Origin: an uncultured Verrucomicrobiales bacterium
GTDB taxonomy: Bacteria; Verrucomicrobiota; Verrucomicrobiia; Verrucomicrobiales; Akkermansiaceae
Assembly (NCBI GenBank): GCA_937928545.1
Contig: CALGJQ010000007.1
Coordinates: 124,001 to 188,000 of the forward strand
DNA: 64,000 nucleotides
Direction of reading: 5' to 3'
A program made the translations under genes and the position numbers. Shown piece after piece: positions 6,662 to 43,105 of this stretch (positions within the stretch are counted from its first letter, which is position 1; the number at the start of each line of letters is the position of its first letter). The notes under the pieces were generated by a model. The model did no database searches. It was not told the DNA's origin and saw nothing but the letters and a program-made list of their open reading frames with translations.

Positions 6662-6700
6662 GCCGCTGTAGCTCAGGGGTAGAGCAATTCACTCGTAATG
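6662..6700 (+). repeat. attL: 39-bp 5' half of tRNA-Thr
   Basis: Identical to the first 39 nt of the intact tRNA-Thr at 43067. It covers the acceptor 5' strand, D arm and anticodon loop plus two bases of the 3' anticodon stem. Identity stops exactly at 6700; the next bases do not resemble a tRNA. It cannot fold into a functional tRNA. The crossover was probably within the anticodon stem-loop, a common target of tyrosine integrases. Confidence 0.9.
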
Positions 6701-6748
6701 CATGACGGTGTTTCATTTAGTCATTATTTCATAAGTGTTCTAGAGGTT

Positions 6749-6769
6749 GGGTAACACTTTTGGGTAACA
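6749..6769 (+). promoter_or_regulatory. Left integrase arm-type site
   Basis: A 21-nt sequence made of two copies of GGGTAACA separated by CTTTT. It is identical to 42890-42910 near the other end of the element. Such repeats at both ends, inside the core sites, are typical of arm-binding sites for tyrosine integrases. A weaker half copy (GTGGTAACAG) lies near 6811. Confidence 0.7.
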
Positions 6770-6929
6770 TAATCGCGATTTGCATTACACGAATCTGCAC
6801 GTAAATCGGGGTGGTAACAGTTTCTGGATGTTGGCGAATGAATTTCGGAATGTGTGAGTTAAGAGGATAAAGAAACGGTCACCATCTCTCGACAGCAACC
6901 GCTTTTTAGTTGGATTTCTTGCGGAAAAT

Positions 6930-7586
6930 TCAGCGCTTTCTCATCAGGAAGAAGATGCTTCCTACAAAGGAGAGAAAGAGAGAAGACGGCTCGGGGATAA
7001 ATGCAGTCCTGATTGCAATATTTGGTTCAGATTCGTAGGCCCATCCATTGATAAACCCACCTCGGCCGCGTGGAGGGATGGTGATGTCTAAATATCCGTA
7101 GTGAATCCCATCCGCTGCCTCAAATTCGATCCCTGCAAAAGCCCTTAAAGTTTCAAACCCAGGATAAAAGGAGCCTGAGCATCCACTGTTGAGGCAAGTA
7201 ATTAAAGAAACGAATCCATCACCCTCCTCAGGAGATACAAAACCGTCAGTGACGTCGGTGTTTAGCCAAGCTAATCCACCCGGAAGAATTGGACCAATCA
7301 GAGAGTTTTCTCCCAAAGGCAATATCTCTCCTCCGAGATCAGGGAAGACTGCTGGAACCGCAAGATATTTATTAGCTGCTGAGGTGATCAGGACAGGTCC
7401 GACAATATCTAGTCCACCGATCCGAATATCTTCGATTCCATCAAAATTCAAATCGTATCTGGTATCACTCACTCCTTCGTTTGGAAGTAGCAGCGAATGT
7501 TCCGGCGACTGAAATACGATCACTGACGCGTCGCTTGATTGCGGCATCAGTGAGTAGATTAAGAGGGGTGTGAATCGGAATCGCAT
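6930..7586 (-). CDS. PEP-CTERM sorting-signal exported protein
   Basis: A 218-aa protein with a short hydrophobic N-terminus consistent with a signal peptide (MRFRFTPLLIYSLM). It ends in a classic PEP-CTERM tripartite signal: IPEPSS, a hydrophobic helix, then the basic tail MRKR. In the known exosortase system the C-terminal signal is cut and the protein is attached or released at the cell surface. The body is beta-rich, with Asp/Gly-rich segments (DLNFDGIEDIRIGG) that could bind calcium. It starts one base after the stop of the upstream subtilase-like gene, so the two are probably one transcript. No exosortase gene is in the window. Confidence 0.8.
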   Translation of the reverse strand: MRFRFTPLLIYSLMPQSSDASVIVFQSPEHSLLLPNEGVSDTRYDLNFDGIEDIRIGGLDIVGPVLITSAANKYLAVPAVFPDLGGEILPLGENSLIGPILPGGLAWLNTDVTDGFVSPEEGDGFVSLITCLNSGCSGSFYPGFETLRAFAGIEFEAADGIHYGYLDITIPPRGRGGFINGWAYESEPNIAIRTAFIPEPSSLFLSFVGSIFFLMRKR

Positions 7587-7587
7587 C

Positions 7588-10248
7588 TTATGGGCGCTTT
7601 AGTCTCCAGAACCGACGAACATCAGTGGATTGAGTTGTTACCATAATCGTATTCAATCCTTGTTCTGCTTCGGTCGTATCATCAACAGTCCAATTTACAA
7701 GGTCTGTTGAGGTTTCAATATCGAAATGAGCCCCCGGATCACCGAAATATTCAATGATGAATTCGTTGAGCGTCGGTGAAACTGCAATAGACTGAATGGT
7801 TGCCATGAGAGGGACTGCATTCGAAAGAACTACCGAAACATCCTGTTGTGAGGGAGCTAGACTATTTGCGAGTCCTCCAGAGTGCGTTAGGGTCACTTCG
7901 TAGGTTCCAGCATCTGGGGACTGATTTGTGATACGCTCAACATTGTTGATCGAATCGATTCCTCGTTCGGCGATGTCATCACGCACGCTGCTGTCTTGAT
8001 TCACCAAGTCTGGCTTTAGAACCCAAGGAAGAAGTGTTGTGTTAGTTTCTAAGTGTCGAATCTTCAAATCGATATTATTGACGAGTGCTGGTGTGGTTGT
8101 GTCAGCAGAGCCTGTGTAGGGTTGCCCTATCCCTGCTGGGTCACTCCAAGCCGCAGTAATAGCTAAAGGCTCGTTTCCATCGACCTCGACAAGCCACGAA
8201 ACAGTTTCATTGGGCTGCAAAGTGATTTCCTTAATCGAACTTCCTCGACCGTTCGTATGATCTTCATCAACAAAATTCACAGAAGTTACCGCATTGAAAA
8301 CACCGTGGCCGAAATAGAAATCAGGCCCCTCGCTTCCTAAGTTATCACATCCGTTGATGGCAATCGCTTTTAGAGTGGAGTTCAACCAAAGGTCAGTTGC
8401 TGGTAAATTAGGATATAGTTGAGAGCGTCGCTCTAAAACCAGCGCGATTCCCCCCGTCACTGCTGGGGCAGAAAAGCTGGTCCCTTCACTCAACTCGTCC
8501 TCATAGCTTGTATTGGTCGCAGAAGATGGAGTAACAAGGCCATCCGTGACAGGTATGTTGAAGAGTGATCTGGCAGAGGCTGACGGTCGGCCAACTGCGA
8601 CAAGGTCGGGCTTGATCCTTCCGTCGTCTGTTGGCCCTGCTCCTGATGTTGGAGCAAGGTTGACTACTGCACCTGGGCCAACTCCTGGAACCGTCGTGCC
8701 ATTGTCATTATGGACGATATCTTCAACAGAACCCACAGTGATCACATTTTTAGAGGTTCCGGGAGATGAGACTGAATCATAACCTCCGGCATCACCGTCA
8801 GACCAGTCTTTCGGGAAAAATGCAGGGTTTCTTGGTGCACCAGTAGTTCCCAGAAAGTATCTGTTGGTTTGTAGATTGTTGGGTTTGACTCGAAGGAATG
8901 CATCACCAGGACCTTCGTTGCGGTCATTTCCACATGAATAGACTAGAAGATGATGAGGGGCTTCAGCATTTGAAAAGTGATCAATTTCTACGCAATCAAA
9001 GAGAATTGAAGAAACATCTTCCGTATAACGACCAAATTTGGGGTCAACCAAATCAGCTGGAGCTTGTCCATCTGGACCATACCAGTACCATCTCCATACT
9101 GGTGTGTTTCCAACAAAACTATGGATTTCTTGTCTCCACCCGTTAACCACTCCATAAGAGTGATTACTGAATGTGAGAGCTTGCCCTCCGTATAGTCCTG
9201 AGGCAGCGCTTTCTCTTTCTGTCTTGAAGTTTGCAATATCGAAAGCTTCAACATCTGCCCCGTAGGCTACTCCTGTTGCATTAGGGTTTGTTGAATCAAA
9301 AGCAGCAATGATGCCACAGACTTCTGTGGCATGACTAGCATCCCCAGAATTGAGCTGACCTAGTCCAGCGTTGTCTCTTTGGTTCACGCGAGAACCGAAA
9401 GAGTTGTGTGCTACACGAACTCCTCCTGCGTTTTCCCACATCGACACTGTTTGCCCTGATCCTGTCAAATCTAGTCCAGTAGAACCTGAGGCCCATGGTG
9501 CAGCGGCGGCTGGCCAAAGTTCGTCGGCTGAAATAGAGGCCGCAGCTAATTGATCATGCCCTCCCGAAAAAACGGGGAAGTCATTAGGGGCTCCGATAAA
9601 TCTAAGGGTTTTTCCTCCGGGAGTTTTGGTCAAAATCTCCAGCCCATGCTTTTTCGCTTCTTGTGCCAAGAGGGCTTCTCGATTCCTTCCTTCTTGTGCA
9701 CCAGCTTGAGCTTGTTGCCTCAGAAGCTGAATTTTTTCGGCCATTTTTACGACCCGTTTAGCTTCATTCTCTCGGCCAACTTTTGTTGCTCGCTTCATTC
9801 CTTTCGCGAAAGCTCTTTGCTTTCGAGCTTCCCATTCTTTCTGGGATTTTATCAGGGAGACCTCAGCGTTCTTTTGAGATTGGGCACGATCTTCGGCTGT
9901 AATTCTTTTTGGCAACGGTTCGGCAACCGAAGGGTTACGCATGAGCACCATCTCTTCATAATCGGTTAGGCCGTCACCGTCTGTATCGGTATTCTTTGAG
10001 CGGTGTTGAATCTCTTTTTGGAATAAGCCGCACCAAATGTCGCACCAGCCATCTTGGTCAAAATCGTGGAGAACTCGCTCAGATTGGTAATCTTCAGAAG
10101 AAAATTTTCCAATTTTTTGGTTTCCCTTCGTTTCAACCGTCACACGGCTCGAAGAAGCTTTGTCTCTCGCCTCTCGTTTTTGTTGTCCAAAAGCGGGAAG
10201 AGAGAAACCTATCACGAGGGCGGTCAGTCCAATAGCTACAGATTTCAT
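7588..10248 (-). CDS. Secreted S8 subtilisin-like peptidase with altered Asp motif
   Basis: This 886-aa exported protein has a clear signal peptide from the ATG at 10248 (MKSVAIGLTALVIGF, cleaved near AFGQQ). Next come calcium-binding DFDQDGWCD and DTDGDGLTD loops (about 62-96) and a charged coiled coil (120-200). The S8 peptidase domain spans about 245-650. His306 (SHATEVCGI), the oxyanion Asn441 (SCGNDRNEG) and Ser591 (GTSFSAPAV) are present. The catalytic Asp motif, usually WDGG in this subgroup, reads MWENAGG, so Asp appears replaced. A P-domain-like region and a terminal ETSTDLVNW beta domain follow. A further in-frame ATG lies 24 codons upstream at 10320 and would bury the signal peptide. 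The protease may be active, altered or dead. Confidence 0.8.
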   Translation of the reverse strand: MKSVAIGLTALVIGFSLPAFGQQKREARDKASSSRVTVETKGNQKIGKFSSEDYQSERVLHDFDQDGWCDIWCGLFQKEIQHRSKNTDTDGDGLTDYEEMVLMRNPSVAEPLPKRITAEDRAQSQKNAEVSLIKSQKEWEARKQRAFAKGMKRATKVGRENEAKRVVKMAEKIQLLRQQAQAGAQEGRNREALLAQEAKKHGLEILTKTPGGKTLRFIGAPNDFPVFSGGHDQLAAASISADELWPAAAAPWASGSTGLDLTGSGQTVSMWENAGGVRVAHNSFGSRVNQRDNAGLGQLNSGDASHATEVCGIIAAFDSTNPNATGVAYGADVEAFDIANFKTERESAASGLYGGQALTFSNHSYGVVNGWRQEIHSFVGNTPVWRWYWYGPDGQAPADLVDPKFGRYTEDVSSILFDCVEIDHFSNAEAPHHLLVYSCGNDRNEGPGDAFLRVKPNNLQTNRYFLGTTGAPRNPAFFPKDWSDGDAGGYDSVSSPGTSKNVITVGSVEDIVHNDNGTTVPGVGPGAVVNLAPTSGAGPTDDGRIKPDLVAVGRPSASARSLFNIPVTDGLVTPSSATNTSYEDELSEGTSFSAPAVTGGIALVLERRSQLYPNLPATDLWLNSTLKAIAINGCDNLGSEGPDFYFGHGVFNAVTSVNFVDEDHTNGRGSSIKEITLQPNETVSWLVEVDGNEPLAITAAWSDPAGIGQPYTGSADTTTPALVNNIDLKIRHLETNTTLLPWVLKPDLVNQDSSVRDDIAERGIDSINNVERITNQSPDAGTYEVTLTHSGGLANSLAPSQQDVSVVLSNAVPLMATIQSIAVSPTLNEFIIEYFGDPGAHFDIETSTDLVNWTVDDTTEAEQGLNTIMVTTQSTDVRRFWRLKRP

Positions 10249-10385
10249 CAAGCGAGTGAATACTATCTTCTTCGTATATCTCCAAGGAGTATTTCGGTAG
10301 GGAGGTGTAATATGTTGCAACTCCTAGGTTAAGTCAGCTCATACATCCTTGGTAGTCAATAAATCCAGTCCGAATAGGGGGAGTT

Positions 10386-11081: not shown

Positions 11082-11111
11082 AATTAACGATGCCTAAATC
11101 ACTCCCCAAGC

Positions 11112-13355
11112 ATGATCGAAAAAATTCAAATTTGTAACGTAGCTTCTTACGGGGCAATAGCAGAAGAACTGGCTGATCTTCAAAAGATTAACTTCATTTA
11201 TGGGTCAAACGGAACTGGAAAAACAACAGTTTCAAGAGTCGTGGCGGACTGCCAGTCCCATTCACAATGCAAATTAATTTGGAAAGACGGCTCCCAGATG
11301 GAGCGGCTTGTTTATAATCGTGATTTTGTGGACCGTAATTTTAATCAATCTAGTGATTTTAAGGGGATTTTCACCCTTGGGGAGAACGATGACCAGGTTC
11401 TTGGCAAGATTCAGTCGGCGAAGGCCGAACTTGATCAGATCAAGGGAAACATTGTTCGGTTCAATAATGTCTTGGATGGAAATGGTGAACTCACCGGAAA
11501 AAGAGCTCAGTTGGCTACCCTAGAATCAGAGTTCGAAAATCGATGCTGGGACATCAAGAGCAAGTACGATGCGCGTTTTGAGGATGCCTTTGCTGGTGCG
11601 CGAGCTAAAAAAAAGGACTTCAAGAACCGGCTCCTAGCGGAATCCAAATCAAATACGTCATCTTCTGTTCCACTTGTTGAGTTAGAAAAAAAGGCGCAAA
11701 CCGTTTTTGGGGAGGCTCCCGTAACTGCCGACCTATTGATTTTACCGGATGAAGGTGGCATTTTGGCTCACGAGAGCGATGACATTTTAGCGAAGAAAGT
11801 TATCGGTAAGGAAGATGTCGATATTGCGGCCTTGATCCAAAAGCTAGGCAGCAGTGATTGGGTGAAACAGGGCCGAAAGTTTTACGACCCTGATCAGCGA
11901 GTATGTCCATTTTGCCAGCAGGACACACCAGCAACCTTAGAGAGCGACCTGAACCAATACTTTGACGAAATCTTCATCGCCGATACGAAAAAAATTAAGG
12001 AGCTTCATGAGGCCTATAAGATCAAGTCTGATCACCTCTTACAGCGTATCAAAGAGCAGCTTGATGACCCCTCAGAATTTCTGAATGCGGATAAGCTCAA
12101 AGCTGAGCATGCTCGTCTTGAGTCGAAGATTGGAATCAACCTTCAAAGGCTTGGAGAAAAAATTCGAGAATCGAGTAAGCCAATCGCGCTAGAGTCACTT
12201 AAAGATATTTTGGAGGTCATTTTGGTTTTGATGAATAATGCGAATGCCTCGATCAAGAAGCACAACAAAATGGTCGCTGATATAGGCACTGAACGAGAAG
12301 TGTTAAAAGGTCAGGTTTGGCGCAATTTACTCGATAATGAAATCCAAACAGATTTGGCCACTTACAATGGAAAGAAGGCAGGACTTGATGGAGCGATTGA
12401 GAAGCTTGAAAAGAAGATTAAGGAAAGCTCTGAGGAGCAACGCAAGAAGGAGCTAGAAATCCAGACGCTTGAGAAAGACAATACGAGTATTCAGCCAACT
12501 ATTAATGGCATCAATGAACTGCTGCGTTCCTTTGGTTTCACTGGATTTGTGTTGGCAAAGTCTGATCGAGATCGATTTTACCAAATCCAGAGGCCTGATG
12601 GCTCGAATGCAAAGGAGACACTGAGTGAGGGAGAGAAGAGCTTCATCACATTCCTCTACTTCTATCACCTCTTGAAAGGGAGCGAGAACGAAAGCGGGAT
12701 GACATCGGATCGCGTTGTTGTCTTTGATGATCCGGTCTCAAGTCTCGATAGTGACGTCCTCTTTATCGTGAGCAATCTGATCAAAGGGCTATTTGATGAA
12801 GTTAGAGGAGAGGCCGGAACAATCCGGCAAGTCTTTGTATTGACTCATAATGTCTACTTCCACAAAGAAGTGTCCTTTAACCCAAGGCGATGTGCAGATA
12901 CCCGATTAAGAGATGAAACCTTCTGGACGGTTAGAAAGACAAGCCAACAGTCGAAGATAAAAAGTCACGACACGAACCCTGTAAAGACGTCATACGAGTT
13001 GCTCTGGATCGAGATTCGCGAACCTGAGCGAGATAGCCTTGCTATTCAGAATACGATGCGCCGCATTTTGGAGAACTATTTCAAGATTCTTGGGAATGTG
13101 GACCCTGATGATATTTGCGGATATTTTGAGGGGAACGAAAAACTCATTTGTCGCTCTCTATTTTCCTGGGCTAACGATGGCTCCCATTTTGCCCATGATT
13201 CGCTTTTTGTTTCCATCGACGACTCAATGGTCGAGATCTATTCAAATGTTTTTAAGCGGATATTCGAAAAGACTGACCATATTGCTCACTACAACATGAT
13301 GATGGGAGATTCTCTTTCCGGTGAGCAAATTGAACCCACGGAACTGGCCTCTTGA
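11112..13355 (+). CDS. AAA_13 ATPase resembling RloC/PrrC anticodon nucleases
   Basis: A 747-aa SMC/ABC-like ATPase. Walker A is GSNGTGKTT (31-39), followed by coiled coil. A zinc-hook-like VCPFCQQ lies near residue 265, with more coiled coil beyond it. The head closes with signature LSEGEKSF, Walker B VVVFDDPVSSLD and the H-loop VLTHN. The C-terminal region has MRRILENYF and, 38 residues after that Glu, NDGSH. This resembles the Arg-x3-Glu...His triad of the PrrC and RloC anticodon nucleases. RloC also carries a zinc hook and is about this size. Those proteins cut tRNA in response to phage or DNA damage. Function here is inferred from architecture; the triad assignment is tentative. It is divergent from the HNH gene. 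Confidence 0.7.
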   Translation: MIEKIQICNVASYGAIAEELADLQKINFIYGSNGTGKTTVSRVVADCQSHSQCKLIWKDGSQMERLVYNRDFVDRNFNQSSDFKGIFTLGENDDQVLGKIQSAKAELDQIKGNIVRFNNVLDGNGELTGKRAQLATLESEFENRCWDIKSKYDARFEDAFAGARAKKKDFKNRLLAESKSNTSSSVPLVELEKKAQTVFGEAPVTADLLILPDEGGILAHESDDILAKKVIGKEDVDIAALIQKLGSSDWVKQGRKFYDPDQRVCPFCQQDTPATLESDLNQYFDEIFIADTKKIKELHEAYKIKSDHLLQRIKEQLDDPSEFLNADKLKAEHARLESKIGINLQRLGEKIRESSKPIALESLKDILEVILVLMNNANASIKKHNKMVADIGTEREVLKGQVWRNLLDNEIQTDLATYNGKKAGLDGAIEKLEKKIKESSEEQRKKELEIQTLEKDNTSIQPTINGINELLRSFGFTGFVLAKSDRDRFYQIQRPDGSNAKETLSEGEKSFITFLYFYHLLKGSENESGMTSDRVVVFDDPVSSLDSDVLFIVSNLIKGLFDEVRGEAGTIRQVFVLTHNVYFHKEVSFNPRRCADTRLRDETFWTVRKTSQQSKIKSHDTNPVKTSYELLWIEIREPERDSLAIQNTMRRILENYFKILGNVDPDDICGYFEGNEKLICRSLFSWANDGSHFAHDSLFVSIDDSMVEIYSNVFKRIFEKTDHIAHYNMMMGDSLSGEQIEPTELAS

Positions 13356-18100: not shown

Positions 18101-19483
18101 CTAAGAAGCAAACCTTTTGACCTCTTCAGTAAATTCATAGATTTCTACGAATAGAGGTTTATCCCATGTGTCTCGGTCATCAAAATATCGGCCAAGGCCG
18201 CTCGCATCTTGTTTCCAATCTTCGGGCGTAATTTTGTTATCGAGAAGGGTTCCTTCTACGAGATCAGAACGAAATTGCTCAATAGAGTAATTCTCCTGAG
18301 AAAATATGCCGAAATACAAAACTTGCCCCCACCATAGCTTGCCTTTTTCTTTAACGATCACTGATCGGTCTCGAAGAAATTGAACGAAATCTACACCACT
18401 GAGGGTCCGTTGCCCGATGGCATGATACAGGGTTGTTTCGGAGACACTCAAGAGTGTCATGAAGATCGTTCCAATCTCCCAAGTCCACTTCATGGTATTG
18501 TTGCTTTCCTTGCTTCTCCTTAGGAGGTGAGCTTGAAGGCGATATGCTTCATGAAGCTGACGAGGCCCAATTTTAAATTCTTGGCAAAGTTCTTGGAGGT
18601 TACTGGTTTTATACGATTCACTTCTTCTGTAACTGAACCGCCCAGATTTTTGTAGAATTTTGGAGCTAATATATTGCGTATAAAGGGCCTCGCAAAGAGT
18701 TCCGTAGCTATGAGGCTGAATATTCGGAAAATCGATATTCCGGTGAGCAAATTTACGGTAATACTCATCGAAATTTAACGACTCACCAAACATTGCGCGG
18801 ACAGAGGAAGCGAGATTCGTTTTATCTACTCCGAGAACAAAAACGAGATGAGGGATGTCGAAGATGTGCTTGATTACTTCAAGGTATTCGACGGCGTAGT
18901 CGGGACGACAACGGTCGAGTTCATCAACCATCACGATGATTGGAAGCGGTGAGTCGTTAACGAATTTTTCCAACATCTCTTTGAGTTCCTTGAAAGTCTT
19001 CTTCCGATCTTCAAATACTTCGAAACATGCCTTTCCCATTAGTCCAGGCTTTCGAGGCTCGGCAGCTTTTCCTGCTTTTTGGATATCCATTCCTGAGGCT
19101 TTTTTGACGATGTCATTGCCAAGAGACATAGCCATTTTTCCAATTTTCCCGGCTTTTGACTTAAGTTCTTCAGTGTCCAGTTTTGGATCGACCAATTTAA
19201 AGTGTGCCGCGAAGCCACTCACAATGGAAAGCAAAGCATCGTGCAGGAAATCAGCATCCCAAGCATTGAGATGAATAGTGGAGAAGCGCTGAGGATCTTC
19301 TGTCTCTAGAAGCTGTCGCCACATTTCGAAGAACGTGGATTTTCCGCAACCAAAGGAACCATTGAGGCTGAGAATGAGCGCTCCTTCAAGGAAGTCGCGG
19401 TCGGTATGAATGAAGCTCGTGAGCCTTTCAGCAAATGGTTTGAGCTCAAGCTTGTCGAATTCAGTAAAAGTCTTTGGTGTCAT
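18101..19483 (-). CDS. KAP family P-loop NTPase
   Basis: A 460-aa protein. Walker A is GSFGCGKST (42-50), followed by the KAP-typical IHLNAWDADF and Walker B IIVMVDELDRCRPDYAVEYLE (Asp187, Glu188); the next stretch HLVFVLGVDKTNLASSVRAMFG is also diagnostic. Many KAP NTPases have membrane helices inserted between the Walker motifs; this one has only a charged helical insert. KAP proteins are scattered in bacteria, several on mobile elements and some in phage exclusion (F-plasmid PifA). ATG 19483 lies 5 bases after the coupling-protein stop; an upstream in-frame ATG at 19558 would overlap that gene. The J-domain gene follows at once. Confidence 0.8.
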   Translation of the reverse strand: MTPKTFTEFDKLELKPFAERLTSFIHTDRDFLEGALILSLNGSFGCGKSTFFEMWRQLLETEDPQRFSTIHLNAWDADFLHDALLSIVSGFAAHFKLVDPKLDTEELKSKAGKIGKMAMSLGNDIVKKASGMDIQKAGKAAEPRKPGLMGKACFEVFEDRKKTFKELKEMLEKFVNDSPLPIIVMVDELDRCRPDYAVEYLEVIKHIFDIPHLVFVLGVDKTNLASSVRAMFGESLNFDEYYRKFAHRNIDFPNIQPHSYGTLCEALYTQYISSKILQKSGRFSYRRSESYKTSNLQELCQEFKIGPRQLHEAYRLQAHLLRRSKESNNTMKWTWEIGTIFMTLLSVSETTLYHAIGQRTLSGVDFVQFLRDRSVIVKEKGKLWWGQVLYFGIFSQENYSIEQFRSDLVEGTLLDNKITPEDWKQDASGLGRYFDDRDTWDKPLFVEIYEFTEEVKRFAS

Positions 19484-19487
19484 GGAA

Positions 19488-20984
19488 TTAAGAAAGAGGA
19501 ATGAAATGAAGAGAATCAGAGGGAAGGGGAGAAGGGAGAGGATGTGGGTGACGGTCAAGAAGGCTCTTCAAACCCGAATTTTGGTAACTTGGGAGCGTTT
19601 CCAAAATCACCGGCTCCTGATTGGCCGTGATACAAAGAGCCTGATCGGCCGACATGCGACGAATACGATCTGCGTTCATCAGATTCTCCTCGCGGGAAGA
19701 ACTGTGTCCCCCGGTTTTGTAATCGAACTTCACCCGTCCCAGCATTTCCTCCACCATTCGGGATGTCTCAGTGTCGAGACCTGAATAGAAGAGCTTCGTC
19801 CTCATCCCTCCCGAGAGAATCGTCTTGGCTGCTTGATCGCCATAGCGTTCTCGAAGCTGCCCGAAATCTTGAAGAATGATCGAAAGTGACACCCGATACT
19901 TTCTGATCGTCGTTGCTACCGTATCGAAGTTTGGAATCATCGAATGTCCGAACTCGTCATAGAGAACGTAGATGGGAAGTCCGGAATTGGTGTATTCCAA
20001 CTTCTTCTGAGAGGCGAAAAATTGCGTGTAGAAGAGATTGAGAATGAAACTGTAAAACTCCGCATCTGTTTCCGGCACGATGAGATAGAGCACCGTCTTT
20101 CTTCTTCGCAGGGCATGAAAATCGATCTCATCCCGGCTGAGGAGTGCGGCAATGTCGGGATTGTTCACCGCCCGAAGCGCATTGCGCCCCATCGTGATAA
20201 AGGATGAAAGCATCTTCTCATTGCCGGAGACAAAGCCCTTGAACTGATTCACCGTCGCCTCATCAGGAGCGTAGCGAGCAATGAATTTCACCAGAGGTCG
20301 CCCATTCTTGCCGAAGTTCTGCAAAAGATGCTGAACGTTGTGGAGGTTCATCCATTCAGGCTCCTCCGTATTCTTGAGGCAGCGGATCAGAATCGACATG
20401 AGATTCTGTGGCTCCGAATACCAAATCTCGTCACCCGGCTTCGTCACCGGATTAGCCGACTTCATGATCACCTGAGCCAGCTTGTCGATCTCCGTATAAG
20501 ACGAAACGTGAGAAATCGGATTGTAGCCCAAACTCGTGGCAGGGTCGGCGAGATTCAAAACCTGCACCTCAAAACCTCGTTGGGCCATTGCGCCGGAAGT
20601 CTTCTCATAGAGTTCACCGCTTGGATCAGTCACAATCGTCGAACAATCATCAAGAGTCAGAAGATTAGGAGCGATGTAACGAGTCGTCTTTCCCGCTCCC
20701 GTTGGACTAATCACCGCAACATGCTCGAAACTGTCTTGTGCGCTGAGGCGTTTGCCTCCTCGACCATCGAGCACGAGCCCCTGATTCCGGGGATTCAAGA
20801 AACGTGCACTTTCTCGATCATTCTGGAAACGTGCGCCTGACTGCTTTTCCTGATCAAAGATTTTCGAAAACAAGCGAGGAACCCATGACTGAATCCGGGA
20901 AGCACCCGGAACATTCTGCCCCAACCAACCCATGCACCAAGCGGCGAAGAGAATCAGGATGAAGAGAAAGATAAGAGCTTCCAT
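19488..20984 (-). CDS. VirD4/TraG-type conjugative coupling protein
   Basis: A 498-aa ATPase that would bring the relaxase-DNA complex to a type IV secretion channel. One N-terminal membrane helix (EALIFLFILILFAAWCMGWL) is followed by Walker A SPTGAGKTT (93-101). The family signatures IVTDPSGELYEKTSG and PIYVLYDEFGHS (Walker B) follow, then a Gln-rich arginine-finger region (IILQDFGQLRERYG). Start is ATG 20984; an ATG at 21140 in the same frame would add 52 residues that overlap the relaxase gene. The protein is shorter than VirD4 (about 650 aa) and seems to lack part of the all-alpha domain. It sits between relaxase and KAP NTPase on the same strand. Confidence 0.88.
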   Translation of the reverse strand: MEALIFLFILILFAAWCMGWLGQNVPGASRIQSWVPRLFSKIFDQEKQSGARFQNDRESARFLNPRNQGLVLDGRGGKRLSAQDSFEHVAVISPTGAGKTTRYIAPNLLTLDDCSTIVTDPSGELYEKTSGAMAQRGFEVQVLNLADPATSLGYNPISHVSSYTEIDKLAQVIMKSANPVTKPGDEIWYSEPQNLMSILIRCLKNTEEPEWMNLHNVQHLLQNFGKNGRPLVKFIARYAPDEATVNQFKGFVSGNEKMLSSFITMGRNALRAVNNPDIAALLSRDEIDFHALRRRKTVLYLIVPETDAEFYSFILNLFYTQFFASQKKLEYTNSGLPIYVLYDEFGHSMIPNFDTVATTIRKYRVSLSIILQDFGQLRERYGDQAAKTILSGGMRTKLFYSGLDTETSRMVEEMLGRVKFDYKTGGHSSSREENLMNADRIRRMSADQALCITANQEPVILETLPSYQNSGLKSLLDRHPHPLPSPLPSDSLHFIPLS

Positions 20985-21072
20985 AAGATGAGAACTGAAA
21001 ATGAAGAGAATATTTCTCCCGACAGATTGATAAGTTATCGAGTCTTTAGAGATGATCCAGAAATTCTCATTT

Positions 21073-21918
21073 TTACTCCGTCGGATGGATCTCCGGGTTG
21101 GATTCTTCCGCTTCCGTGTAATAGGCCTCCAAATCCTCAAGTCGAGTCATCTCCTTATCGATCTCCGATTCAGTGAACTCCGAAGCACGAGAGGGAGTGA
21201 AGAAACGGTCTCCATCGAGACCTAGGGTCGAAAAACGATACCTCTTGCCGTGATGCTCCACTCCCGGCGTGCGGCCTCGGCGATAGAGGACAAAACCCTT
21301 TTCCTTGAGAACCGACTCCAAATCCTGCGGATTTGTCTCCTTCAAGATATCTTCCAATATCCGGCGAAGCTCCTCATGGGAGAGAGGCTTCTCTTGAGCG
21401 TTTTCGGGACTTTGAGCTCTGGCGCGAGAACGGTCGTAGATGATCGGCTGCTTGAGATCGGGATAAACCTCATGGAGATACTGCTCACAGCGTTGCTGGA
21501 TTTCTCGATACGATCCCTTACTCAAGCGAAAGCGACGCGCCTGATTCAGCTCATTGGATGAAAGCATCAAATGAACGTGAAGATGACCCTGCTCCAAATG
21601 AATGCGACCGTAGCCCAAAAGATGAGGAGCGCGGATCGAAAGATACTGCCGCGTCAGGTCCTGGAGAGCCTGCATTTGGCGTTGTAAAGGAACCTCCGAG
21701 TAGAACTTCAAAGAAATGATCTCGTGATAAAGGACATTTCCCTTCGCGTGAGTCCGCAAAAGATCGGAATTCTCGTAGAACTGCTCCAAAACCTGCTCGC
21801 GGTTTTCAACTGGCCGCAGATTCCAAGGCATGAATCCCACCATCCCATCATCCCGATTCATGTAATCGTAGAGCTGGGAAAAACTGCGGGACTTGCGTGA
21901 CATACTCTTAATGATCAC
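21073..21918 (-). CDS. MobP/VirD2-like relaxase
   Basis: A 281-aa DNA-nicking enzyme for mobilization. The three-histidine metal site is plain: His107, His112, His114 and His116 in RIHLEQGHLHVHLMLSSNE. The likely nicking tyrosines are Tyr17 and Tyr19 in SFSQLYDYMNRD. YHEIISL (about 64-70) is the usual strand before the His motif. The C-terminus is acidic. It is short compared with plasmid relaxases that carry a primase or helicase tail. MobC overlaps its start by 4 bases, and the putative oriT lies just beyond MobC. The HxxxxHxHxH pattern and the MobC partner favour the MOB-P class. Confidence 0.85.
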   Translation of the reverse strand: MIIKSMSRKSRSFSQLYDYMNRDDGMVGFMPWNLRPVENREQVLEQFYENSDLLRTHAKGNVLYHEIISLKFYSEVPLQRQMQALQDLTRQYLSIRAPHLLGYGRIHLEQGHLHVHLMLSSNELNQARRFRLSKGSYREIQQRCEQYLHEVYPDLKQPIIYDRSRARAQSPENAQEKPLSHEELRRILEDILKETNPQDLESVLKEKGFVLYRRGRTPGVEHHGKRYRFSTLGLDGDRFFTPSRASEFTESEIDKEMTRLEDLEAYYTEAEESNPEIHPTE

Positions 21919-22325: not shown

Positions 22326-22675
22326 TCTGCGGGGAACTACGGTCCTGGAGCCAGTGCCATCCGGTAGCGGTGCATTTTTTAAAGGGGTCGAGGGGAATCC
22401 CCCCGCAAGTTGTCCTTTGGGAACGGTTCCAATCCCGGGCCGCGAAGTGGTTCGGATGGGACTGGAGCCAAAAGGCAAACTTGCTCCGCCTCGCCACCCT
22501 GCGGGAGAGAGCGGAAACCGGTTCCGGCAAATCACCTCCTTAGGAATTCGTTTCACCAAGAACAGAACCCACCAAATACAAGCGTGAGAAAAGACGGCTT
22601 GAGAAAGAATAAAAGGGGAGAGCGATAAAACCGAGAAGGCCGGATAGCAGGGCTTATGGAATCGCAGTTTCCAGC
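22326..22675. other. Putative oriT region
   Basis: This non-coding stretch separates divergent mobC and the DUF2637-like gene. It contains an imperfect inverted repeat: GCAAGTTGTCCTTTGG (22405-22420) and its near-complement CCAAAAGGCAAACTTGC (22468-22484). Further weaker pairing occurs inside, and a GGGGAATCCCCC tract lies just before the left arm. A long inverted repeat directly upstream of mobC-relaxase genes is the usual layout of an origin of transfer. The nick site cannot be fixed from sequence alone. Confidence 0.5.
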
Positions 22676-24816: not shown

Positions 24817-24856
24817 CAGAGTTGTCTCCTCCGCTTTGTCCATAACCGGAGGTCTC

Positions 24857-35152: not shown

Positions 35153-35578
35153 TCAGGCAGTTTGATTTGGCAAATCGGTCCACCATTCTTCTTCGAGTAG
35201 AATCATCATGTGGCGCTGGGTGAGATCAAGGTTGGCGGGATTGGGAGATTCGCTCCGGCAATCTTTATCGGAACAGTAAATTTCCCAAGCGACGGTTTCT
35301 CCGTCATAATCAAAAGTGCCTCGATTGTGGAGATACTGTGGGTCGTTTTTCTCGTTGAAAGTGCGGTAAGAACGCACTCGATTGAGAATGGTCTCTTGGT
35401 CCTCAATGCCGAACTTAAGAATGCCTGGAGAGCAGTAGAGTTCGGTTGAGGTGAAACATAGGCGAAAGGCATCGTTGAGAGACTGGATGCAGCGTGTCCA
35501 GTCCTCGACGTCAGCAATAGAGGCTTGGAGTTTGATCGGTCGTAGGAAAGAGCGGTTTTTTGTTAAAAGAAGGGTCAT
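35153..35578 (-). CDS. Divergent DUF3768-like protein
   Basis: A 141-aa protein, a diverged paralogue of the gene upstream. It shares the order SLNDAFR, then FNEKNDPQYLHNRGTFDYDG, then VAWEIYC, then a terminal TQRHMMILLEEEW. The corresponding DUF3768 motifs are LNDxxR, DNDPxGEHDFG, WKIDYYD and TxRVLTIML. The GEHD acidic-His core of the family is lost (LHNR). Start is ATG 35578. The two genes lie head to tail 31 bases apart on the minus strand, evidently a local duplication in which this copy diverged. Function of the family is unknown; members are frequent on plasmids and integrated elements. Confidence 0.65.
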   Translation of the reverse strand: MTLLLTKNRSFLRPIKLQASIADVEDWTRCIQSLNDAFRLCFTSTELYCSPGILKFGIEDQETILNRVRSYRTFNEKNDPQYLHNRGTFDYDGETVAWEIYCSDKDCRSESPNPANLDLTQRHMMILLEEEWWTDLPNQTA

Positions 35579-35609
35579 GTGTGTTTGTGTTAAGTGTAAA
35601 TAATGGGGG

Positions 35610-36029
35610 TCAATACTCGGAAGTGAGCATGATGGTGAGGACGCGAGTCGTGACATCTGAGTCGGCGGGGTCTTCCGAACCGTAGTGGATGGCTTTATCG
35701 TAGTAGTCTATTTTCCACGCAATACGGCGTCCTTCGAATCCGAACGATCCATAGTCATGTTCTCCGTGCGGATCGTTGTCGGGAGTGAAGTTGGAGAAGG
35801 TCTGAACCTGTTTAGTGACTTCGTATTGCTGAATCGCGCTCATTGCGGCGATTCCTGAAGTCATTACAACTTGTCCTCCGACAAAGGTTGTTCTGAGGAG
35901 GTCGTTGAGGGTTCTGATTTTGTTACGACGGATTTTTTCTTCCACCTTTGTAAGAGTCGGTGGCGAAGATTGGACAGGTGTTTCTCTTTCACGGTGATCT
36001 TCAGGAGTGCTTGTTTGTTTTTCATTCAT
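35610..36029 (-). CDS. DUF3768 family protein
   Basis: A 139-aa protein with all the family marks: LNDLLRTTF, the strongly conserved DNDPHGEHDYGSF, AWKIDYYDKAIHYGSEDPAD and the ending TRVLTIMLTSEY. The N-terminal 35 residues are an extra, disordered Pro/Glu/Thr segment. DUF3768 proteins are small and found mainly on plasmids and ICEs of proteobacteria, without assigned function. It is 32 bases downstream of the replication-relaxation gene and probably co-transcribed with it, consistent with a plasmid-maintenance role. Confidence 0.8.
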   Translation of the reverse strand: MNEKQTSTPEDHRERETPVQSSPPTLTKVEEKIRRNKIRTLNDLLRTTFVGGQVVMTSGIAAMSAIQQYEVTKQVQTFSNFTPDNDPHGEHDYGSFGFEGRRIAWKIDYYDKAIHYGSEDPADSDVTTRVLTIMLTSEY

Positions 36030-36061: not shown

Positions 36062-36967
36062 TTAGGAGAGAAGGGAGTGAGGTGGGGGACGTATGGGAAA
36101 CGAGAACACCGGTGCGGCAAGGAGATTGGTTCGTCGATAGCTCCATCCCTTCGCGGTGTGTGGGGAAGTGATCTGGAGATAGCGGGGAAGGCAGGTGAAG
36201 CAGACTCCTTTACGATGACCAATATCGTGAGCGATTAGCCGGAGATTTTCTAAACGAGATTCAGTGAGGCAGACGAACATGACCCTTGAAGAATGGGCTC
36301 CCGCAAACTCGGGGTGCTGTCGAAGACTTCGTCCCAGAGTGCGATAGCTGAGGAGTTTTTGCTGGATGATGGCTTTCCCTTTTCCTCCGATGCCACTGGT
36401 CTGAGTGCTCCGGTCAATTTCCAAGAAGAAGAGAAGGGATTTTCCCCGAATGCGAAGAATCACAGTGCCGTCAGGGATGAGGCGCTTTCCATCAATACGG
36501 AAGACACACTGTCCGTCCCTATGAAAATCTAAAACTGGAATCTGGAGCTTCCGGGAATCGCTCAGAAACTTAATCCAAAATTGAGAGAGCATGAACTCAT
36601 GCGCTTGGACGTTGAGGCCAACTGGAGCGCAAGCACGGGAAGGAACGATGATGCCATCGGTCTCGGAAAGGTAAGAAGCTCCTCGTCGGCTGAGGAAGTA
36701 GTAGAACTCTCCATTGAAGAGCATTCGATCACGCTGAATAAGTCCTGCGGTCCTGAGTTTATCGAGACGACGATAAAGGGTCTGAGAGCTAGCGAAGGGA
36801 AGTTGATTGGCGATACAGATTTCCGCTGCCAGTCGAGTGGTCAGAGTGAAACGTGAGATGGATTGCAAGAGAAGTCGGTCTCGCTCCGTGATTCGGAAAT
36901 TAGATGTGAATAAGCAAGGAGGTGAAGAGGTAGAAAGTCCCAACTCGATTTGCTGGAAAAACAGCAA
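36062..36967 (-). CDS. Replication-relaxation family protein
   Basis: A protein of about 301 aa with an N-terminal winged helix (ITERDRLLLQSISRFTL, then LYRRLDKLRTAGLIQRDRM) and a C-terminal domain. Its RLIPDGTVILRI is followed by LLFFLEIDRSTQ, which recall the PD-(D/E)XK-like core of the replication-relaxation family. Such proteins are encoded on conjugative and mobilizable elements and are thought to take part in replication or processing of the element's DNA. No ATG fits the start; a TTG at 36967 or another nearby TTG/GTG is used. It is divergent from the primase gene, with a hairpin-rich region between. Confidence 0.7.
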   Translation of the reverse strand: MLFFQQIELGLSTSSPPCLFTSNFRITERDRLLLQSISRFTLTTRLAAEICIANQLPFASSQTLYRRLDKLRTAGLIQRDRMLFNGEFYYFLSRRGASYLSETDGIIVPSRACAPVGLNVQAHEFMLSQFWIKFLSDSRKLQIPVLDFHRDGQCVFRIDGKRLIPDGTVILRIRGKSLLFFLEIDRSTQTSGIGGKGKAIIQQKLLSYRTLGRSLRQHPEFAGAHSSRVMFVCLTESRLENLRLIAHDIGHRKGVCFTCLPRYLQITSPHTAKGWSYRRTNLLAAPVFSFPIRPPPHSLLS

Positions 36968-37146: not shown

Positions 37147-38142
37147 ATGAAAAAACAAAATAGCTGGGTCGATTATCGCGACCTCAAATCCAGAATCAGT
37201 GTTCTCGATGTCATGAAGCACTTCGGTGTCGAGTTGACCACGCAGAATGGAATCCAATACCACGGGCCATGCCCTCTACCGGGTCATTCCGGTAATGGGG
37301 ATAATCCCAATGCCTTCTCAATGAATATCGAGAAGAATGCTTGGCGCTGTCTGACTCACTGTGGCTCTGGTAACGTCATCGATCTTCATCTCAGGATGAA
37401 TGGAGGAGACCCTGAGAACAAAGGACTCTTTCGTGAAACCGCTCTGACCATGCAGGAAATATTCCTCGGAGGAGAGATGACGATGCCTTCGACTCCAAGC
37501 AAGAAGCTGTTGGTATGTCCCCCAAAGAATCTCGAACCCAACGAGCAATTGAAGTTCTCACTCAACGTGAAATCCGATATTCCCTATCTTACGAACGAGA
37601 AGAGATTCGATTCAGAATTACTCTCCTCACTCGGCATTGGCTGGGTAGGAAAGGGGATGTTCTCTGGCCGCGTGGTTGTTCCGATTCATAATCGAGAAGG
37701 ACAGCTTGTCGCTTACGCTGGAAGAGGTCTCAAAGAAACGGACATCAAAAAGCGTGGGCGTTGGTTGCTTCCGAAGAATTTCCACAAGAGTCTGGAATTA
37801 TTCAACCAGCATCGAGCGTTGGAGTGCGACCTTGAGTCTGACGGTCTTGTCGTCGTCGAAGGATTCTGGTCAACGCTCCGCTGGCATCAGGCAGGGTTTC
37901 CGGCTGTTGGACTCATGGGATCGTCTCTAAGCAATCAGCAGCTGGGGCAAATCGCCACCATGACTTCGATTGTCTGGCTCATGCTGGACAACGATGAAGC
38001 CGGAAAGAAAGCCCGTGAAAAAGTGGTCCTTCAACTGGCTGAGAAAGTTGCCGTGCGTCTCGTGAATTATCCCGAGGACTCTCCGCACACTCAACCGGAA
38101 GATTTCACGCCGGAGGAGCTTTTGAAGCTTCTACCGAAGTGA
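37147..38142 (+). CDS. DNA primase, CHC2 zinc finger plus Toprim
   Basis: A 331-aa short primase. The zinc-binding residues are Cys42, His47, Cys68 and Cys72 (CPLPGH ... WRCLTHCGSGN). A linker contains the DnaG-like GWVGKGMFSGRVVVPIHNREGQLVAYAGRGL, the RNA-polymerase basic motif region. The Toprim fold follows, with GLVVVEGFWS (catalytic Glu) and IVWLMLDNDEAGKKAREK (the DxD-type motif). It lacks the DnaB-interaction C-terminal domain of DnaG. It probably primes replication of the element after transfer or excision. It is divergent from the replication-relaxation gene, and a membrane-protein gene converges on it 5 bases away. Confidence 0.85.
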   Translation: MKKQNSWVDYRDLKSRISVLDVMKHFGVELTTQNGIQYHGPCPLPGHSGNGDNPNAFSMNIEKNAWRCLTHCGSGNVIDLHLRMNGGDPENKGLFRETALTMQEIFLGGEMTMPSTPSKKLLVCPPKNLEPNEQLKFSLNVKSDIPYLTNEKRFDSELLSSLGIGWVGKGMFSGRVVVPIHNREGQLVAYAGRGLKETDIKKRGRWLLPKNFHKSLELFNQHRALECDLESDGLVVVEGFWSTLRWHQAGFPAVGLMGSSLSNQQLGQIATMTSIVWLMLDNDEAGKKAREKVVLQLAEKVAVRLVNYPEDSPHTQPEDFTPEELLKLLPK

Positions 38143-38846: not shown

Positions 38847-39009
38847 CCAGAAATGAATACAAAATATTTTTGTTTAGGTGAAGGAAATCTCTGAGAGCTA
38901 AGTCAATGACGATAGAGAATAGGATTTGTGTGAAAATCAAGTCAGTCTGATTTGTGTTTTTCAGGAAAGTCTGTTAGAAAGGAAGACTCTACTTTTTATC
39001 TCAATCAAT

Positions 39010-39900
39010 ATGCCTGAATTTGCTTCTTTGGAGCAATCCTATCGCCGATACGCCCTTTACGAAAAGGGACAAAGAAGAACTACTGTTACCCAAACTTTGC
39101 GGATGGTTAGATTAGTTTGTGAGTTTGCTCGAACATCTGAAATCCGTTCCCTCGACACTCCACTTATCCGAGAGTTTCTTCAAGTTGAACGAGAAAGAAA
39201 GGGGTGGTCTGCAAAGACTTTTAGGCTCTATCGACAATACCTCAAAACATTCTTTGATTGGACTGTTTCTCAGAGGTGGATCAAGACTAACCCAGTAAGT
39301 GAGATTCAATCGCCGAGACTGCCTAATCCACTTCCTCGATGTTTGTCGAAAGATGATGCTCTGAAACTTCTCTCTCATGTCCATTGGCATCCATGGCGAT
39401 ATGAGTTGGAGGGGAGTCGGAACAAAGCCATCATCGCGACTTTCCTTTTTACGGGGATTCGAATGAGTGAACTTCTCGATCTGAGGACGATCGATATTGA
39501 TTTGGAAAATGGGGAACTCCAAATCCTATCTGGAAAAAATGAGAAAGGACGTTCTTTGGCGATTCATCCTCAACTTCTGCCGATTTTGAGGGAATATCGA
39601 GCTTCTCGTCTACGTCTTGGAGTTCCTTCTCAATGGTTCTTTCCGAGTGTGAAGTCTGAAAAGCGCTTAACCGTGAAGAATCTTCACGAAGTTTTCAGGA
39701 AGCTTTCTGTGTCTACGGGAACCAAAGTCACCCCCCATATGCTTCGTCACACATTTGGGCGGTTGAGTGTGGAGTCCAATATCAATCTGAGAATCATCCA
39801 AGGAATGATGGGGCATTCTAGTATTCGAACGACCCAAAACTACACTTTCGTTTCGACTAAGGCGATGAAGAGAGCTCTGGCGGAAACTTCGTTGATTTAG
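39010..39900 (+). CDS. Tyrosine recombinase, XerC/D-like (first of a convergent pair)
   Basis: A 296-aa recombinase with an N-terminal SAM-like core-binding domain (1-120) and a catalytic domain. Catalytic residues: Arg in FTGIRMSELLDL, Lys in SGKNEKGR, the box HMLRHTFGRL, GHSSIRTTQNY with the Tyr nucleophile, and the intervening His in MMGHSSI. The preferred start is ATG 39010; an upstream in-frame Met at 38926 would add 28 unlike residues. It is paralogous to the next gene, with which it overlaps tail to tail by 4 bases. Such paired integrases often act together on an element. Confidence 0.85.
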   Translation: MPEFASLEQSYRRYALYEKGQRRTTVTQTLRMVRLVCEFARTSEIRSLDTPLIREFLQVERERKGWSAKTFRLYRQYLKTFFDWTVSQRWIKTNPVSEIQSPRLPNPLPRCLSKDDALKLLSHVHWHPWRYELEGSRNKAIIATFLFTGIRMSELLDLRTIDIDLENGELQILSGKNEKGRSLAIHPQLLPILREYRASRLRLGVPSQWFFPSVKSEKRLTVKNLHEVFRKLSVSTGTKVTPHMLRHTFGRLSVESNINLRIIQGMMGHSSIRTTQNYTFVSTKAMKRALAETSLI

Positions 39901-40706
39901 ACATCGAACCCTTTAGCAAGAACCTGCTCCTTAAGTCTCTCTCCCGTTACCGAGAGGTAGATCGCGGTGGTCTTCATATCGGCATGTCCCATCAGTTCCT
40001 GGACTTCCCGAATGTGGAGACCGCTCTCGAGCATCCTGGTCGCGTAAGTATGTCTCAGAACGTGAGGCGTGAAATGAATACCCGATTTGTCTCGGAGCCT
40101 CTTCACGAGCCTTTGAATGACTTTCTCTCCCATCTTTGCGTCATACTTCAGCGACGCAAAAAAGTAGGGGCAGTGTTTTTTGAGGCGAACCCGCTCAGCT
40201 ACATATTCTTCTAGGATTCGCGTGAGAGAATAGCGAAACGGTATCTTGCGGTCCTTGCCACCTTTTCCAGCCCTAACGAAGAGTTCTTGGCGGGTGAGGT
40301 CGATATCATCCATTTTGAGGTCGAAAAGTTCAGACCTCCGAATTCCCGTCCCCATAAAGGTGGCGACAATTGCGATTGCCCTTTTCTTTTCGTAGCGGTA
40401 GTCGAACGGAAAGCTTTTCACCCAAGAGAGAAGGCGGTCTGCTTGTTCTCCAGACAGAGATCGAGGGAGAGTTCTAGGGAGCCGAGGGCGATCAATATCT
40501 TTAATTTGATTTGCGTCGAGGTGCCCGTTCTTGACGCACCAGTCGGCAAATAGGCTGAGATAACAGAGGTAAAGTCGAATTGTTTTCGGAGACCATTCTC
40601 GATGGAGCTTTCCGTGTATGATCCAGTCTTCGATTGAATGTCTGGTAAATTCCTGAATAGAAGTGATTTTTGAAAAATGACGGTAGCCATTGAAGGCGAC
40701 GGTCAT
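39897..40706 (-). CDS. Tyrosine recombinase, XerC/D-like (second of a convergent pair)
   Basis: A 269-aa recombinase with the same layout as the preceding gene. Catalytic residues: Arg in GTGIRRSELFDL, Lys in AGKGGKDRK, HVLRHTYATRML, and GHADMKTTAIYLSV with the His and Tyr. The two share motifs such as the PRLPxxLPRxLS linker and diverge elsewhere. It is read towards the other recombinase, and the stop codons overlap by 4 bases. A tRNA-Asn 3' fragment lies 175 bases upstream of its start, on the same strand, and is a plausible att site for this pair. Confidence 0.85.
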   Translation of the reverse strand: MTVAFNGYRHFSKITSIQEFTRHSIEDWIIHGKLHREWSPKTIRLYLCYLSLFADWCVKNGHLDANQIKDIDRPRLPRTLPRSLSGEQADRLLSWVKSFPFDYRYEKKRAIAIVATFMGTGIRRSELFDLKMDDIDLTRQELFVRAGKGGKDRKIPFRYSLTRILEEYVAERVRLKKHCPYFFASLKYDAKMGEKVIQRLVKRLRDKSGIHFTPHVLRHTYATRMLESGLHIREVQELMGHADMKTTAIYLSVTGERLKEQVLAKGFDV

Positions 40707-41572: not shown

Positions 41573-41806
41573 ATGAACCCCCACGACGATACGAAGTTCA
41601 GGGTAGAAATGGACAAGGCGATTTTATCTACCAAAGAAGTATGGGGCTATGTGGGTAACCGTATGGTCTGGGAAGAGCTGAAACAAAAATACGGTTCTGA
41701 GTTGGTTCCGTTTCGGCAGACCGCACGAGGAGATTCCTTCTGGCATCGAAACGTTATTGATTCGCTGCTTATGAGGGCGCAGCTTGAAGGTTCACTAAGA
41801 CCGTAG
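41573..41806 (+). CDS. Hypothetical 77-aa protein next to integrase
   Basis: A small soluble protein with a helix-turn-helix-like centre (LSTKEVWGYVGNRMVWEELKQKYG), reminiscent of excisionase or winged-helix proteins where an N-terminal VW/Y turn contacts DNA. It overlaps the integrase stop by 12 bases tail to tail. Next to an integrase a directionality factor would be logical, but similarity is weak and this is a guess from position. Confidence 0.4.
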   Translation: MNPHDDTKFRVEMDKAILSTKEVWGYVGNRMVWEELKQKYGSELVPFRQTARGDSFWHRNVIDSLLMRAQLEGSLRP

Positions 41807-42856
41807 TTTCGAGATCACGTCATTTGAAACAGGGGAAAAGCCAACATAGTGCTCCTCCACAACCCGTATTTCGTCCCCAAGGAGGGCGGCGATGTCTCTC
41901 ATCGCGACATTTTCCATCGCTAGATGAGTCGCGAAGCTGTGCCGGAGAGTATGGTAGGTAACGAATGCTGCTCTCGATTTCTCGGCATGATTGGCGAGTT
42001 GCTTCTTGGGATTGAAGCGATAAGCGGGAGCTGTCTTCCACTCGGCTTTGTGAGGTGCTAGCATGAAAGGCTTTCTCCGACCATAGCGCTTGAAGAATTC
42101 GAGCAAGCGAGGGTGAAGGGGGATGGTGCGGATTTCCTTGTCCTTCGGTTTCCAATGATTGGTTTCCTGGACGACGATATTACCATGTTTTTCATCAGGG
42201 GAAATAAAGAGCCAATGATCCTCCATTGCCAACATTTCACCGAATCGAAGTCCGGCAAAAAAGCCTACGTGGAGGATGAAGTCGAGTTCTTGGGAAGGTG
42301 GGCATTCGAGGAGCGCGTCACGTTGCTCATAGGTGCAAAAGTCCTGTCGCTTAGTGCGCTTGATTCGTCCCATCTTAATATTTGCCATCGGATGATTCGG
42401 GATGCGGTTGGTGCGGTGGCACCAACTCAAAAATCCTTTAAGAATTCTCATGTAACCTCCAATGGATGAATCACTCATCAGTTGTCCTTTGCGTCCTGGC
42501 TGTTGGGCAATCCAATTGCGCCATTGAAGGACAGCAGCTTCGTCAATGACGCTGAGAAGGGGATTATCCCAATATTTACAAATTCCTCGGAGAACAATTC
42601 CGCTGGTGGCTTGTGTGCGCTCGGTATGCTCTCCAGATGCTTTCTTGGCTGCAAGGTAGGCTTTGATCTCTAGTTCCATTCGGCCTTTTGAAATGGCACT
42701 CTGGAGTTGTTGCTTTTGTTGCAGCTCAAAAACCTTGGTGACCGCCTCGTTTTCGGCCTGAGTCCGGAGTGCAATGGCTTTCGGGCGAACGCCATCTTTC
42801 TGGGGTGGTCGCCAATAGAACCAGTCTCGTTTTTGGAAGAGTCCTTTGATTTTCAT
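41795..42856 (-). CDS. int: Tyrosine integrase of the tRNA-Thr element
   Basis: A 353-aa phage-type integrase. An N-terminal arm-binding-like basic region (GLFQKRDWFYWRPPQKDG) leads to a SAM-like domain and the catalytic domain. Catalytic residues: Arg in FAGLRFGEML, Lys in WKPKDKEIR, YHTLRHSFATHLA, and EEHYVGF with the nucleophile. I place the start at ATG 42856. The open frame runs on to 42922, but that extension crosses the GGGTAACA repeats. It lies 210 bases from attR, its promoter facing the tRNA. One inverted arm site begins 2 bases upstream of the ATG, so the enzyme may repress its own gene. Confidence 0.9.
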   Translation of the reverse strand: MKIKGLFQKRDWFYWRPPQKDGVRPKAIALRTQAENEAVTKVFELQQKQQLQSAISKGRMELEIKAYLAAKKASGEHTERTQATSGIVLRGICKYWDNPLLSVIDEAAVLQWRNWIAQQPGRKGQLMSDSSIGGYMRILKGFLSWCHRTNRIPNHPMANIKMGRIKRTKRQDFCTYEQRDALLECPPSQELDFILHVGFFAGLRFGEMLAMEDHWLFISPDEKHGNIVVQETNHWKPKDKEIRTIPLHPRLLEFFKRYGRRKPFMLAPHKAEWKTAPAYRFNPKKQLANHAEKSRAAFVTYHTLRHSFATHLAMENVAMRDIAALLGDEIRVVEEHYVGFSPVSNDVISKLRS

Positions 42857-42857
42857 T

Positions 42858-42910
42858 AAAGTGTTACCCAAGTGAGTGAATTGCTCGTAGGGTAACACTT
42901 TTGGGTAACA
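42858..42910. promoter_or_regulatory. Right integrase arm-type sites
   Basis: A 21-nt repeat identical to the left site lies at 42890-42910 (two GGGTAACA units). A 12-nt inverted copy, AAAGTGTTACCC, lies at 42858-42869 directly before the integrase ATG. Together with the left site they define three or more binding positions outside the core, the layout seen in bipartite tyrosine-integrase att sites. Confidence 0.7.
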
Positions 42911-43066
42911 CTTCGAGTTCAAATTAACGTAAAATCAAGTGAAACTGCGTGCTTCTCAAAAATCACGTTTGCCAAGTGGACCGTGTTTGCTAAGAAACGG
43001 CTGTCGGAGGAATTCATTGATTTATCGATGGTTTTGGCGACACTCACCCGCTTTTCTTGTGTAAAA

Positions 43067-43105
43067 GCCGCTGTAGCTCAGGGGTAGAGCAATTCACTCG
43101 TAATG
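43067..43105 (+). repeat. attR: 39-bp repeat within intact tRNA-Thr
   Basis: Perfect second copy of the 39-bp repeat at 6662-6700, forming the 5' half of the intact tRNA-Thr. Sequence upstream of 43067 differs from that upstream of 6662, so the 5' side of the working tRNA appears to have come from the element. Confidence 0.9.

Follow-up and report, generated by a model that had tools for sequence, protein, structure and literature searches.

In the Islander collection, 3760 of 3919 tRNA-gene islands have a 3' tDNA fragment and 159 have a 5' fragment (PMC4383910, in the passages cited here). An earlier note on this DNA had stated that integration at a tRNA gene usually keeps the 3' half in the element, and these counts bear it out. 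The same passages recognize anticodon-centred crossover as a class among tyrosine-integrase islands. For the archaeal elements pTN3 and TKV4, the passages cited describe a shared sequence of about 41 bp that runs through the 5' half of a tRNA as far as the anticodon; in pTN3 the rebuilt tRNA is parted from its original promoter, integration splits the integrase gene, and transcription of the tRNA is said to come from the integrase promoter (PMC5495485, PMC8371274). A review passage on use of the 5' half cites Williams 2002. Divergent tRNA and integrase genes are rare and, together with the SIT arrangement, make up less than 8% of 1273 pairs (PMC2951348). A literature search of partial coverage returned no report of 5'-half elements in Verrucomicrobia.

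The repeat and the gene content of the element

The locus lies in a 64-kb window (the whole stretch of DNA that was analysed) of contig C7 in G000, a metagenome-type assembly of 75 contigs that is 92% complete. Related genomes and the genes themselves point to Verrucomicrobia. ARAGORN identified one tRNA gene in the window, an intact tRNA-Thr(CGT), which matches Rfam RF00005 with 73.1 bits. Nucleotides 1-39 of this gene recur at the left junction with zero mismatches, and the bases beyond differ on both sides. No other perfect direct repeat in the window reaches 24 bp; the offset of this one is 36,405 bp, and the block is bounded as the earlier note had described. The anticodon loop is CTCGTAA, and identity between the copies extends 2 nucleotides past it. 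When the flanks are joined in silico, one intact tRNA-Thr(CGT) results; the predicted circular junction yields none. A DNA search of the whole assembly with the tRNA gave three matches, two of them the full and half copies at the junctions and the third a different tRNA, at 79%. The G+C content is 47.1% in the element, 51.6% in the left flank, and 53.6% in the right flank.

A Pfam scan covered 30 ORFs between the repeats. All four functions previously proposed for the block (integrase, relaxase, coupling protein, and primase) were found there and are listed with the other features in Table 1. No type IV secretion gene other than those for the relaxase, the MobC-like protein, and the coupling protein was named among the 30 ORFs. 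This content fits the earlier designation as an integrative and mobilizable element (IME), one that would be mobilized with the help of a conjugative element. Four tyrosine recombinases are present, the end integrase and three others. The third and fourth are XerC/XerD-like and overlap by 4 bp. The families PDC-S06 and PDC-S20, matched by two cargo proteins, are candidate anti-phage families, and the PDC-S06-matching protein also weakly matches PrrC, an anticodon nuclease. Two neighbouring ORFs at 35153-36029 each match DUF3768.

Table 1. Coordinates of the features of the element and its junctions, in window positions
Feature	Position	Strand	Remarks
Chromosomal promoter motif	6618-6645	+	TTGTCA-N16-TAGGAC, TGC before second box; 44 bp before displaced half
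Displaced 5' half of tRNA-Thr(CGT), nt 1-39, left junction	6662-6700	+	Anticodon loop 6692-6698
Left arm-site pair (probable)	6749-6769	+	GGGTAACA-CTTTT-GGGTAACA
218-aa ORF, left end	6930-7586	-	No Pfam match
Subtilase-family protein, cargo	7588-10320	-	PF00082, 101 bits
AAA_13 protein, cargo	11112-13355	+	AAA_13, 598.6 bits; best match candidate defence family PDC-S06, 935.7 bits
KAP-family NTPase, cargo	18101-19558	-	Pfam and defence-family profiles; candidate defence family PDC-S20
VirD4-like coupling protein	19488-21140	-	PF02534, 188.9 bits; NF045973, 236.6 bits, below cut-off of 250
MobA/VirD2-like relaxase	21073-21918	-	PF03432, 26.2 bits, barely above cut-off of 24.6
MobC/NikA-like mobilization protein	21915-22559	-	PF05713, 25.3 bits, barely above cut-off of 23.2
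Second tyrosine recombinase	24202-25089	-	
Replication-relaxation family protein	36062-36967	-	PF13814, 37.8 bits
DnaG-like primase	37147-38142	+	TIGR01391, 109.4 bits, below cut-off of 283.6
Third tyrosine recombinase	38926-39900	+	
Fourth tyrosine recombinase	39897-40706	-	Converges on third
End integrase, 353 aa from ATG 42856	41795-42856	-	Longest ORF to 42922; PF00589, 31.8 bits, above cut-off
Right arm region (probable)	42862-42910		Directly upstream of integrase start; one GGGTAACA minus (42862-42869), pair plus (42890-42910)
Inverted copy of tRNA nt 21-33, 13 bp	42874-42886	-	Between right arm sites
Element-borne promoter motif	42969-42996	+	TTGCCA-N16-TAAGAA; 98 bp before tRNA
Leader between promoter motif and tRNA	42997-43066	+	Possible hairpin
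Intact tRNA-Thr(CGT), right junction	43067-43141	+	nt 1-39 probably element-derived, 3' part chromosomal; anticodon loop 43097-43103

Probable integrase sites, proposed crossover point and promoter motifs

The end-integrase gene starts 210 bp from the 5' end of the tRNA gene and points away from it. Its R/K/H/R/Y-type columns are invariant in the protein and its kin. It is taken as the integrase that acts at the tRNA site, and its kin adjoin tRNA genes or parts of them.

The sequence GGGTAACA occurs six times in the window against 0.5 expected, and five of the six copies are at the element ends. The pattern GTAnCA-N7-GTAnCA is found exactly twice in the 64 kb, at 6751 and 42892, just inside each end; its background is 2 in 329,497 bp, or 0.0016 per 260-bp stretch. 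These pairs are probable arm sites of the integrase. Of the 25 sites examined, 15 have no strict pattern alongside, and the half-sites of G020 and G040 are among these. The inverted tRNA copy between the right arm sites recurs in G020, and with a single change in G008, again at the right end. By analogy with other integrase genes that overlap att sites (PMC2951348), it may be a core-type binding site for autorepression. Since arm-type sites occupy the region upstream of the integrase gene, the integrase probably represses itself.

Identity to the tRNA stops exactly at the last loop base in G020 and G040. Because identity ends at the loop edge in these two genomes and 2 nucleotides past the loop in the window, the crossover most likely falls inside the anticodon loop, with the element supplying the 5' half.

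Both tRNA copies are preceded by the motif TTG-N16-TG(C/T)TA, a chromosomal one with the displaced half and a second one inside the element end. The left motif differs in type from the right one and has a short leader. The fetched loci hold 63 distinct tRNA contexts, and the motif precedes 17 of them, including contexts of Thr(CGT) (8 of 18), Thr(GGT) (6 of 9), and Thr(TGT) (2 of 3); its background is 0.003 per 150 nucleotides. Its presence before both copies and before other host tRNAs suggests that the element probably brings its own tRNA promoter. A plain sigma-70 scan (TTGACA/TATAAT) found no promoter at either element end. A separate candidate for a general tRNA promoter, TTGCTAAGAA, was rejected; it has 14 occurrences in G000 (control 4), of which one precedes a tRNA.

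Nine upstream regions align well over the promoter block and leader; they were picked by eye from 19, and the other ten, including the G000 left flank, differ. In 10 sequences, 83.9% of the cells of the leader hairpin are paired, compared with 31-62% for slid structures; its covariation was matched by 40 of 500 shuffles, and RNAalifold gave just -0.84 kcal/mol. The data are modestly suggestive of a possible hairpin in the leader before element-type tRNA copies (42997-43066; L093, L095, L097-L101, L103), with most of the pairing preserved despite changes in sequence.

Related sites and related integrases

Among 27 genomes of the genus, 15 have a tRNA-Thr(CGT) that is intact or cut by a contig end, and four (G000, G006, G020, and G040) have a 5' half, each followed by a related left end. 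With G307, of a sister genus, this makes five half-sites that share the same left-end layout. The arm pair fits the strict pattern at three of the five (G000, G006, and G307) and always lies at an offset of 51 from the loop. In G006, a single contig holds the 5' half and, 2.9 kb away and equally oriented, 70 nucleotides of the full tRNA; without an integrase, the site looks like a decayed or cis-mobilizable derivative. The G006, G020, and G008 contigs that carry these sites yielded no integrase domain.

The earlier note had proposed a comparison with related genomes lacking the island. Conservation of the flank was found, with 6 of 6 left-flank genes in the same order in G012 and 5 of 6 in G018; a clean empty site was not. 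No site with both flanks joined turned up when the 27 genomes of the genus were queried with the tRNA and with three flank proteins (RF3 from the left, the 703-aa protein from the right, and RNase HII), or in a further search of 38 relatives. The fetched 20 kb of the G012 and G018 loci contained no tRNA, and no other genome among the 27 combined the left flank with the rnhB side. The rnhB gene keeps its downstream neighbour at 23 of 24 loci, and it shares a contig with a copy or part of tRNA-Thr(CGT), 35-75 kb apart, in G002, G009, G014, and G023. Some 14.4 kb downstream of their intact tRNA-Thr(CGT), G021 (L096:14485-14529) and G003 (L094:7705-7749) carry a degenerate 3' part of this gene, perhaps marking an old 3'-type element.

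The integrase search gave 21 of 386 genomes of the order at E 1e-20 or better, G000 included. The tree has 22 rows, these 21 and G011 from the genus search. G307 repeats the layout of the window at an intact tRNA-Thr(TGT), from which a cousin integrase (about 40%) diverges. Its half copy, on a separate contig, is identical over 51 bp (nt 1-41 and 10 bp of leader), and arm pairs are present at both. The 20 other cousins comprise 16 on the conventional side and four without an assigned side; for most of the 20, one end is visible. In five of the 16 the integrase lies 5' of a displaced 3' part, and in the other 11 it lies 3' of an intact tRNA or of a lone 3' half. Among the 11, G011 is a weaker case because it is some distance from the tRNA. 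G014 has the conventional side at tRNA-Thr(CGT) itself and falls in the same well-supported five-row clade (100/99) as the window integrase. Arm pairs lie on the 3' side of tRNA-Thr(CGT) in G007 and G019, and the G007 arm sequence is nearly that of the window. The distance from arm pair to loop is 72-73 bp at the 3' side of the tRNA versus 51 bp at a 5'-type left end, a difference that would amount to about two helical turns.

Since both polarities occur among integrase kin with like arm sites, a switch of attachment halves within the family is likely. The two 5'-type rows need two changes on the tree, with G338 and G384, which have no assigned side, lying between them; a single origin of the two is not supported by the 22 rows. 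A lone tRNA-Val-like 5' part in G061 (L228) adjoins a cousin integrase, upstream of it and behind a run of N, and is a possible further 5'-type case. Wider searches for kin took in L252 and 57 other viral loci and kept 80 genome loci of 154 relatives; L252 was the locus inspected for an att site. The record of this best viral-contig relative (50%) begins at the integrase ATG, which puts its att site out of view, and GGGTARCA is absent from it. The tRNA core is present in 19 viral contigs.

Interpretation and comparison with described systems

The preferred reading, which we hold with good confidence from the sequence evidence, is that the element is an IME that inserts by a tyrosine-integrase crossover in the anticodon loop and rebuilds tRNA-Thr(CGT) with its own promoter and 5' half. 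The integrase would cross over within the 7-bp loop. Insertion would push the chromosomal promoter and 5' half to the left junction, leaving them there as a dead fragment directed into the element. At the right junction, the tRNA would then combine the promoter and 5' half of the element with the 3' half of the chromosome, and the divergent integrase, with arm-type sites upstream, would probably repress itself. The earlier proposal that the element restores the 5' half of its target gains support from the arm pairs inside both copies, the five similar half-sites, and the two promoter motifs.

The promoter and leader before the tRNA might instead be native, with the half at 6662 stemming from another event (an older element, a tandem insertion, or a rearrangement) and the block not being one unit. 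Element-type promoter and leader do precede tRNA-Thr(CGT) in G003, G021, and G008, with no integrase seen alongside. The half-sites of G006, G020, and G040 have such a leader upstream, as tandem or repeated insertions would give, and the missing empty site and the four recombinases within the block point the same way. We nevertheless regard this reading as improbable: the arm pair occurs nowhere else in the window, G+C is lower across the whole block, the left flank is chromosomal sequence conserved in G012 and G018, and the left promoter is of another type.

It is very unlikely that unrelated contigs were joined at the tRNA sequence during assembly. The metagenome-type assembly and the many relatives' copies of tRNA-Thr(CGT) at contig ends would allow it, but the repeat is internal to a 349-kb contig, and both copies have matching arm sites on their inner sides. 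An ordinary 3'-half element with misread ends would agree with the Islander majority (PMC4383910, passages cited) and with the 16 of 20 other kin on the conventional side. This is scarcely credible here and is already refuted by the sequence, since the repeat begins at tRNA nucleotide 1 and ends at the loop, and no 3' fragment of tRNA-Thr(CGT) is present in the window or among the assembly matches.

Most tRNA-targeting elements leave the host promoter driving the rebuilt tRNA. The window element seems to take the promoter over, which would couple expression of a host tRNA to a mobile element. A broader idea, offered tentatively and more doubtful than not, is that a Verrucomicrobia-type clade switched from the 3' to the 5' half of threonine tRNA genes, keeping core and arm sites, with each insertion swapping the promoter and leader of the host tRNA. 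If so, serial insertion would have repeatedly replaced the tRNA-Thr(CGT) promoter across the genus, and an element-borne promoter with its structured leader would govern the supply of this tRNA. Because one integrase clade has both polarities with like arm sites, a change of att-site half could be studied within one family.

The intS gene of KplE1, one of the tRNA-linked integrase genes with a promoter that overlaps the att site, is similar in that the region upstream of the integrase gene overlaps arm sites, which are probable ones here, and the 210-bp spacing between tRNA and integrase is within the 208-228 bp of autoregulated pairs. In the prophage KplE1, tRNA and integrase share one orientation, whereas the window pair is divergent (PMC2951348, passages cited). 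As in pTN3, the 5' half is shared and the rebuilt tRNA is separated from its original promoter. Unlike in pTN3, the integrase gene is whole and divergent, with a separate tRNA-type promoter motif between it and the tRNA. A suicidal integrase of the pTN3 type does not apply, as ORF 41795-42922 is uninterrupted and ends 144 bp before the tRNA. The locus resembles the 5'-fragment islands of Islander in having an intact tRNA at one end, a displaced 5' fragment in the same orientation upstream, and a tyrosine integrase between them; this likeness is at the level of layout, the cited passages giving no promoter or arm-site anatomy for the 159 islands (PMC4383910). The element thus belongs to a known, rare class of 5'-half islands, with an unusually clear promoter replacement.
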